Source: Treponema sp. | Lineage (GTDB): Bacteria; Spirochaetota; Spirochaetia; Treponematales; Breznakiellaceae | Length of the DNA: 64,000 bases | Reading direction: 5' to 3' | NCBI GenBank assembly: GCA_012517385.1 | Contig: JAAYUZ010000139.1 | Span: 1-64,000, forward strand | Shown here: positions 35,853 through 37,557 of the stretch, piece after piece | Numbering within the stretch: position 1 is the stretch's first letter | How the letters are laid out: each line of letters starts with the position of its first letter | The notes under the pieces: generated by a model | Database searches by the model: none | What the model was told of the DNA's origin: nothing | Seen by the model: the letters and a program-made list of their open reading frames with translations, nothing else | Translations under genes and position numbers: made by a program

Positions 35853-35886
35853 GGTTTCAAATGTTTCACGTGAAACATTTGAAACC
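35853..35886. promoter_or_regulatory. parS site within a perfect 34-bp palindrome
   Basis: GGTTTCAAATGTTTCACGTGAAACATTTGAAACC; core TGTTTCACGTGAAACA at 35862-35877 is the consensus ParB-binding site. Confidence 0.93.
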
Positions 35887-35902: not shown

Positions 35903-36337
35903 CTACTTAAAAATGAAATAAAAAATCAAAGCTACTGAAAACATTATCATAAAGCCCGCGATCATTAACCCTAATGTTTTTGAATACCCCTTTGGCCGTA
36001 TTTCTCCCATTTCGTCAAGTTTTGTAATGATAGGATGCAAGGTTATATAGTAAATGCCGATGGATACTATGGTTACCACAACACCTACTATTTTTGATGC
36101 TTCATTCCCAAAGATTACTATATTGAGAAGCAGAACAATAAATATTAGTTTACAATTGGCAACCCAATTCACCAGGTATTTTGAATATAGGTAATTTTTT
36201 TCATCCTGTTTTGCTCGTTCCCATCCTTCAAAGGAAGCCATACTGTTTCCGTATGTAAAATCAGGCTTAACATACATAATTACTACATTGGATAGTTCCA
36301 ACAATATAAAAACGATAATAGCAATGTTTAAAATCAT
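35903..36337 (-). CDS. Small integral membrane protein of unknown function
   Basis: 144 aa with predicted TM helices; good Shine-Dalgarno (GAGAGGGA) upstream. Confidence 0.6.
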   Translation of the reverse strand: MILNIAIIVFILLELSNVVIMYVKPDFTYGNSMASFEGWERAKQDEKNYLYSKYLVNWVANCKLIFIVLLLNIVIFGNEASKIVGVVVTIVSIGIYYITLHPIITKLDEMGEIRPKGYSKTLGLMIAGFMIMFSVALIFYFIFK

Positions 36338-36423: not shown

Positions 36424-36458
36424 GAGGCTCTTTCTAAACTCGGTGGTTTTAAAAGAGC
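36424..36458 (+). repeat. Hairpin repeat copy 1
   Basis: GAGGCTCTTTCTAAACTCGGTGGTTTTAAAAGAGC; near-identical inverted copy at 37613-37648. Confidence 0.75.
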
Positions 36459-36504
36459 AACCTTAGATGTATTTGCAGTATTCCTACTACACTATACTAC
36501 ATTT

Positions 36505-36618
36505 GCTTAACTTGCAATTCTGGCCCGAAGGGCTTGGCACACTTTTTGTCGAGCGTTCGCCAGCGTAGCTGGGGTGCGATTGCAAAAAGTGTGCCAATAG
36601 GAATTGGCAGGTTAAAGC
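36505..36618 (-). repeat. attC-like structured inverted-repeat element downstream of vapC
   Basis: Outer arms GCTTAACTTGCAATTC / GAATTGGCAGGTTAAAGC with bulges; inner perfect 15-bp stem TTGGCACACTTTTTG (36534-36548) / CAAAAAGTGTGCCAA (36583-36597); apical CCAGC-GTA-GCTGG. Confidence 0.5.
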
Positions 36619-36638
36619 AGTTATCAGAAATTGTTCTT

Positions 36639-37034
36639 TTACTCTATCTCTACACCAATCTCTTTTGCTATTGTTTTCAATTTTTTATCTTGTGTTAATA
36701 GAATCGCACCATTTCTTCTTGCAATTACTAAATACAATAAATCATATACAGAGTGTTTAATTCTTATTCCTTCATTTAATGCTTCTTCATTATTCTCTGA
36801 AATATCTATGTATTCATCAATTAACTCATCACAGTATTTAAGTCGTTTTTGTACTTCTTCTTTACTCAAGAGTCCTGCCATAGCATATTTCCACAATACA
36901 TTTGCAGTTTCTGCTTTATACAATTCTGACGTTATGACTTTTGATGCTTTCTCAATCTTTCTTTCATATATTTCTGCACCTTCACGAGATAGCGCTACTT
37001 CTATTCCAGCACTTGCATCCAAAACAATAATCAT
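36639..37034 (-). CDS. vapC: PIN-domain ribonuclease toxin (VapC family)
   Basis: MIIVLDASAGIEVAL, TSELYKAETANVLWKY, SVYDLLYLVIARRNGAILLTQDKKL; overlaps antitoxin gene by 4 nt. Confidence 0.9.
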   Translation of the reverse strand: MIIVLDASAGIEVALSREGAEIYERKIEKASKVITSELYKAETANVLWKYAMAGLLSKEEVQKRLKYCDELIDEYIDISENNEEALNEGIRIKHSVYDLLYLVIARRNGAILLTQDKKLKTIAKEIGVEIE

Positions 37035-37276
37035 CTTTCGCGATCCTCTCTTATCAAAATAGCAGGATCAGGAAACTTATTTGCATCAACTATAATGTCA
37101 TTTCTTATTTCCTCTAAAATTCTTTTCCTTCTAGAAATTCTGCTTTCTTTGTAGTTTAAAGCCTTCCTTAATAAAACTATCGTTTCTTGAGTAATGCTTC
37201 GATTATCTTGTTCTGCAATTTGTGAGAGTTTTTCATATAGATCTTCAGGCATATCTCGTACTTGCAATAGTGGCAT
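37031..37276 (-). CDS. vapB: Ribbon-helix-helix antitoxin (FitA/VapB-like)
   Basis: MPLLQVRDMPEDLYEKLSQIAEQDNRSITQETIVLLRKAL; start at 37276 has GGAGGGA SD; ORF track start at 37324 is upstream of the SD. Confidence 0.85.
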   Translation of the reverse strand: MPLLQVRDMPEDLYEKLSQIAEQDNRSITQETIVLLRKALNYKESRISRRKRILEEIRNDIIVDANKFPDPAILIREDRER

Positions 37277-37288
37277 AAAATCCCTCCT

Positions 37289-37316
37289 GTATGCAATATT
37301 AATACTTAATGCATAC
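37289..37316. promoter_or_regulatory. Candidate autoregulatory operator of vapBC
   Basis: Inverted repeat GTATGCA-N14-TGCATAC immediately upstream of the vapB SD. Confidence 0.5.
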
Positions 37317-37537
37317 TTTTTCAAGATTATGCTATTTGTTTACTGTATATACTAATAGTATTGCACACGAAGTGTGTCTTGCTAATATATAATTATTTCG
37401 TAAATGTAAAATACCGCAAGAGGTTTTTACAAATACCCCGCATCTCGAATAATAGTACTACATCACCGATTGAATATATGGATATACCGGAAAACCTTCT
37501 AAAAACATATATTGATCACGAAAAATAGAATAATATC

Positions 37538-37557
37538 TTTGTTTCACGTGAAACAAA
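37538..37557. promoter_or_regulatory. Second parS site
   Basis: TTTGTTTCACGTGAAACAAA; core TGTTTCACGTGAAACA at 37540-37555 identical to the first parS. Confidence 0.93.

Follow-up and report, generated by a model that had tools for sequence, protein, structure and literature searches.

Genes and features of the vapBC locus

The DNA analysed here (the window) is a stretch of 64 kb on contig C52 of a Treponema sp. draft genome (G000; 2.97 Mb in 201 contigs). The locus of interest is the interval between an aminopeptidase gene and gyrA, in which a toxin–antitoxin (TA) gene pair and a hairpin are found on the minus strand (Table 1). The gene for the PIN-domain toxin is preceded by that for the antitoxin, which it overlaps by 4 nt, as in VapBC modules. 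The antitoxin scored just below the cut-off for the FitA-like family PF22513, and an in-frame TTG is situated upstream of its ATG, at 37324. NCBIfam provided no named family for vapB or vapC, nor for a 144-aa membrane-like ORF at 35903-36337 on the same strand. That ORF, which had no Pfam match either, is absent from the syntenic intervals of the three congeners examined. A search of the whole window against Rfam at gathering scores returned no matching family.

Matches to the promoter motif in this stretch were not above chance. The promoter-like motif upstream of vapB, together with its partial conservation in the congener G003, supports a cassette that could express itself away from the integron promoter, as TA cassettes are described to do (PMC11023631), and vapBC is likely to be driven by a promoter of its own.

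Table 1. Features of the vapBC locus in the window, with the evidence for each
Feature	Position	Strand	Evidence and remarks
Target, left half (dispersed intergenic repeat)	36424-36499	+	In silico joining; alignment to empty copies
Complete integron gene cassette, 886 bp	36500-37385	-	5' TTAGCAAG..., promoter, vapB, vapC, attC, 3' ...AAATG
attC site, covariance match	36493-36630	-	R1 model; cassette-borne part is 36500-36630
L' arm and spacer CAAGTTAAGCAAATG, including GTTAAGC	36500-36514	-	Cassette ends at G 36500; earlier labelled R' box
Variable terminal structure: perfect 15-bp stem and loop between the L boxes	36534-36597	-	Folding
L'' arm CTTTAACCTG... with extrahelical base	36605-36617	-	Earlier labelled R'' box
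Decayed R'' box (approximate place)	36622-36628	-	TCTGATA, against CCTAACA in intact sites; AAC to GAT
vapC, toxin gene, PIN domain, 131 aa	36639-37034	-	PF01850, E 8e-12
vapB, antitoxin gene, ribbon-helix-helix, 81 aa from ATG	37031-37276	-	PF03869 (Arc), above cut-off
Likely cassette promoter TTGAAA-17-TAATAT with overlapping operator-like GTATGCA/TGCATAC	37289-37324	-	Motif; partly conserved in G003
Target, right half (same repeat copy)	37386-37433	+	In silico joining; alignment to empty copies

The hairpin downstream of vapC

An earlier note on this DNA had described a hairpin with outer arms CTTTAAC and GTTAAGC, inner arms GCCAATTC and GAATTGC that differ by one extra base, and a strong 15-bp stem, and had likened it to an integron attC site. 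These strings were all found in place (36611-36617 and 36505-36511, 36601-36608 and 36514-36520, and 36534-36548 with 36583-36597, respectively), as was the spacing of 20 nt on the minus strand between the vapC stop codon, which ends at 36639, and the hairpin edge at 36618. Folding as single-stranded DNA with DNA parameters gave z values of -6.4 for the vapC strand and -7.3 for the other strand, and none of 200 shuffled sequences was as low.

A covariance model (R1) was derived from 21 different attC sites of the congener G001, with the window excluded. It is apparent that R1 recognizes the window at one place, the predicted element (36493-36630, minus strand), with a score of 74.8 bits and an E value of 1.6e-15 for 171 kb searched; with the filters off and only the local stretch searched, the E value was 1.3e-17. 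The match extends over the full length of the model (1-124 of 124) in the order R''-L''...L'-R', with a bulge in the L box at the attC extrahelical position. The bulge base is C in most sites and T on the minus strand of the window, a variant that also occurs in G001. The next-best R1 score near the element was 16.3 bits and came from this hairpin read on the opposite strand, and no second attC site was detected by R1 in the 64-kb window. The congener-built model and the attC array beside intI in the same lineage (see below) identify the hairpin as an integron attC site.

The position first given to the element (36505-36618) was correct, but its extent of approximately 114 nt was not, as the covariance match is longer. 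The outer arms had been taken for the R boxes. Both the covariance model and an alignment of 27 G001 attC sites place them instead in the L box, so that assignment was rejected; in the R1 alignment the true R'' and R' boxes are situated approximately 5-10 nt further out. Recombination requires an R'' triplet AAC and an R' triplet GTT. In the window these read GAT and GTA, the latter as G|TAG in place of the intact G|TTAG. The earlier description had implied an intact site, whereas the one observed has both triplets mutated and is solitary, outside any array. With these triplets, the element is classed as a degenerate attC site that is probably inactive nowadays.

The specificity of R1 was apparent from a set of 61 relatives, in which matches were obtained in 12 of the 15 genomes with an above-cut-off IntI versus five of the 46 without one (Fisher p 1.2e-6). 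In G062 and G065, which belong to another family, the model also picked up attC arrays next to intI. Over the whole of G000 it yielded three attC matches only, each behind TA genes; a loop related to that of the window site is present on contig C13. A dispersed hairpin repeat unconnected with cassettes was also considered, and was rejected on the basis of these three matches and their relationship to the array beside intI.

The integron integrase and its cassette arrays

The window contains no integrase gene, as had been noted before, but an integron integrase is encoded elsewhere in G000. An open intI gene is found on another contig, C192; it scored 373 bits against TIGR02249 at the contig level and 372 bits as a 442-aa protein (curated cut-off, 265). 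The best PDB match was the Vibrio cholerae integron integrase 2a3v (E 1.9e-65), and the alignment runs through the integron-specific insert, GVFLPEAIALKYPHAEFEWSWYWLFPS. This stretch is not known from Xer proteins. The attI region and the start of the first cassette are visible on C192, which ends approximately 0.4 kb past intI, and no cassette array was found in the G000 draft.

An array is present in G001, which is available as one contig of 3,239,340 bases. Its intI is located at 1926802-1928088 on the minus strand, and the cassettes follow on the plus strand from an attI-like start beside it. The integron comprises intI, attI and approximately 42 cassettes in about 50 kb, with 42 R1 array matches delimiting 42 cassettes. 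Blastn with the window element reported eight matches in this genome, all of them clustered near 1.94-1.98 Mb. Direct reading of the sequence gave 27 regular attC sites, with the consensus CTAACAACTGCTTCAACCTG...CAGGTTAAGCAAATGTTAG and one unpaired base in the L box; the terminal stem shows compensatory changes, with both sides altered in 12 of 32 pairs. The window attC is homologous to the sites of this array, so that related elements do exist in the lineage, as the earlier note had asked.

Modules resembling attI (...GGGGTATAATATGGGGGATG|TTAG), with cassettes, were also observed at G001:C1:1790970, G001:C1:3020050 and G003:C63:7291, with no intI match nearby. In an IntI tree, for which outgroup sampling was biased toward relatives of the query, the IntI of this genus branches apart from a clade of 20 other spirochaete IntI proteins (support for that clade, 100/99). 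The genus intI is, moreover, transcribed divergently from its cassettes. The separate branch and the divergent transcription suggest a second integron acquisition in Treponema-like spirochaetes.

Extent of the cassette and its occurrence in relatives

The same vapB gene, with a truncated vapC, is present in G003, with 84% nucleotide identity to the window copy. The similarity begins exactly at TTAGCAAG, position 37385 of the window, so that an identical cassette 5' end is found at two unrelated locations. In G003, ...TATAGAGGGGCATAATATGGGGGATG ends at this point. In both G000 and G001, the first cassette next to intI has that module in front of it; vapBC therefore occupies the place of a first cassette at an attI-like site in G003. 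The R'' box that follows the G003 copy, TTGCTAAC, is intact and complementary to the cassette start. A distant vapBC relative (41% amino acid identity) is cassette 40 of the G001 array. Taken together, the start of homology, the attI-like position, the R'' box and the G001 relative define the window cassette as 886 bp running from 37385 to 36500 on the minus strand.

The 3' end of the cassette matches the ...CAAATG|TTAG of congener attC sites, and one base (T) is common to both junctions. The unit is discrete, with its genes followed by attC in the same orientation and its 5' end at the R' TTRRRY side; the gene-then-attC order that had been compared to an integron cassette is thus that of a whole mobile unit.

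Broken vapC genes were seen at two places: that of G003:C63 is truncated after 88 aa, and a copy at G001:C1:307562-307950 contains an internal stop and is divided between two frames.

The insertion site

When the sequences flanking the cassette were joined in silico, they formed one copy of a dispersed intergenic repeat of approximately 125 bp, 40 copies of which were scored in the G000 draft. Members of this family read GAGGCTCTTTCAAAACTC...GTAAAAATACTGCAAGAGG and contain internal inverted repeats. A simple empty orthologous site was sought in G001, G002 and G003 and was not found. The four genomes all differ from one another in the aminopeptidase-gyrA interval, and paralogous copies of the repeat were therefore used as empty sites. 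These read ...CTATACTATGTATATAATTATT..., as compared with ...CTATACTA(cassette)TATATAATTATT... in the window.

The interruption is clean to approximately 2 nt, the window falling about 2 nt short of the repeat consensus within an AT-rich stretch of variable length. The earlier note had proposed a comparison with an empty locus for a clean G/TT junction. A near-clean junction was indeed recovered, against dozens of paralogous empty copies, but the G/TT was not: the window junctions are A|TTAGC...AAATG|TAG (that is, A|TTAG and G|TAG), which do not match the canonical G|TT. This mismatch may reflect either a target that was poor from the start or drift since the insertion. Because of the non-canonical junction and the shortfall of about 2 nt, strictly conservative recombination is not proven. 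The site is neither attI nor attC, and its empty form is recoverable from the paralogous copies.

Other elements were observed in this interval. In G001 it contains a mazEF cassette with its own attC (G001:C1:3233214-3233322 and upstream), the junctions of which are clean G|TT: GGGAG|TTAGCCGG...CCAATG|TTATTT. The sequence TGTTTCACGTGAAACA, which we take to be a parS-like ParB site, has only two exact copies in the whole G000 draft, at window positions 35862-35877 and 37540-37555, on either side of the cassette locus. Similar palindromes, TTTCACGTGAAA, occur in the syntenic interval of G001, G002 and G003.

Lone cassettes in the genus

Single attC sites away from arrays and attI-like sites were found at seven places in the genus: on contigs C52 (the window), C13 and C58 of G000, near 467k and 3233k in G001, on C216 of G002 and on C19 of G003. 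All seven follow type II TA genes, as determined by inspection of ORFs, although about 0.8 kb intervenes at C58. By the same kind of inspection, 11 of the 42 cassettes in the G001 array are TA modules, many of them duplicates. The difference in TA share corresponds to a Fisher p of 0.0004 (seven of seven) or 0.005 (six of seven), in a comparison that is post hoc and made between non-independent units. In other genera, lone attC sites are also found with non-TA genes.

Different TA cassettes were observed at shared loci. The aminopeptidase-gyrA interval holds vapBC in G000 versus mazEF in G001. Behind the same HD-GYP gene, G002 (C216) and G003 (C19) carry two different TA pairs, each with one attC and with nearly the same left breakpoint. 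It is possible, if rather doubtful at this stage, that the integrons of this genus seed the chromosome with TA cassettes at non-integron sites, that those which are self-expressed and addictive are selectively kept, and that at some loci different TA cassettes repeatedly land or are exchanged.

Origin of the cassette

The locus is very probably a lone vapBC cassette with its attC site that was inserted by IntI at a non-integron site, inside a repeat, and has since decayed. Insertion by IntI is suggested by the cassette boundaries and by the presence of IntI in the genome. The IntI of G000, or that of an ancestor, would have excised the vapBC cassette from an integron as a circle, and the cassette attC would then have recombined with a secondary site (attG) inside the dispersed repeat. 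In this way vapBC would have become a resident chromosomal module under its own promoter, with the edges of attC decaying afterward (R'' from AAC to GAT, R' from GTT to GTA). Given these decayed edges, the cassette is probably stuck, and the mutated triplets suggest that it is immobile at present.

The non-canonical junction bases are also in keeping with arrival of the cassette by homologous recombination, or inside a repeat that itself moved, rather than through IntI acting at the site; the repeat family that received it has many copies and could be mobile. A second repeat copy interrupted by a cassette was not seen, however, and the other lone cassettes of the genus are situated outside this repeat, the one at 3233k in G001 having clean G|TT junctions; arrival by such a route appears unlikely. 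A further possibility is that the cassette is what was left of a former array or CALIN at this locus after the others had been deleted. The occurrence of mazEF with attC in the same interval of G001 is consistent with that history. The flanks of the window cassette, however, join up as one repeat copy and hold no traces of other cassettes or of attI, no other attC is present within the window, and the G001 cassette has different flanks and junctions of its own. An array remnant is, on these grounds, quite improbable.

It could also be argued that the hairpin is merely a vapC terminator or a mobile hairpin repeat of the REP or MITE kind, and resembles attC by chance. It has a 15-bp stem and T-rich arms, its first arm scores as terminator-like, and it may additionally act as a terminator. 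As a sole explanation, this is refuted by the R1 E value; the placement of the bulge at the extrahelical position and the restriction of the element to three genome copies, each behind TA genes, likewise argue against it, and a chance resemblance is scarcely credible.

Comparison with known systems

Single attC sites without an integrase have been termed SALINs (PMC12690207), and IntegronFinder 2 discards them by default owing to false positives, while conceding that they can be real (PMC9024848). The window resembles a SALIN or single-attC CALIN in having one attC behind one cassette and no intI nearby. It differs in that dozens of paralogous repeat copies show the target in its unoccupied form, and in that a congener has the same cassette at an attI-like site. 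Insertion of cassettes into genomes at attG sites has been described by Loot et al. (2024), as cited in PMC12901181 and PMC12444791. The window cassette is similar in its location outside attI and attC and in its gene-then-attC orientation, whereas the event considered here is natural, old and in a spirochaete, with a junction that lacks G|TT.

Chromosomal integrons are known from Treponema (Wu et al. 2013, PMC3607928), and attC sites without intI have been reported for T. phagedenis. The present genus shares with these a spirochaete chromosomal integron with attC arrays, but it has a different IntI lineage, with intI divergent from the cassettes. Its attC sites are also longer (102-136 nt in the R1 training set, as compared with matches of mostly 65-70 nt in G062 and G065). 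In the chromosomal integron of V. cholerae, 19 cassettes carry TA genes and have promoters of their own (PMC11023631); the window cassette likewise carries a type II TA pair with a likely promoter of its own, but is situated outside an array. Lone attC sites, attG-type insertions and Treponema integrons are thus kinds already known, of which the window locus is a well-documented further case.

The locus is a natural example, resolved almost to the base, of a gene cassette that has moved out of an integron into the ordinary chromosome. Approximately 40 sibling copies of the repeat preserve the target as it was before insertion, and a relative has the same cassette at an attI-like site. Examples of this kind show by what route integrons contribute genes to the genome outside their arrays, and they point to a bias that could be tested, namely that the cassettes which persist alone are toxin–antitoxin modules.
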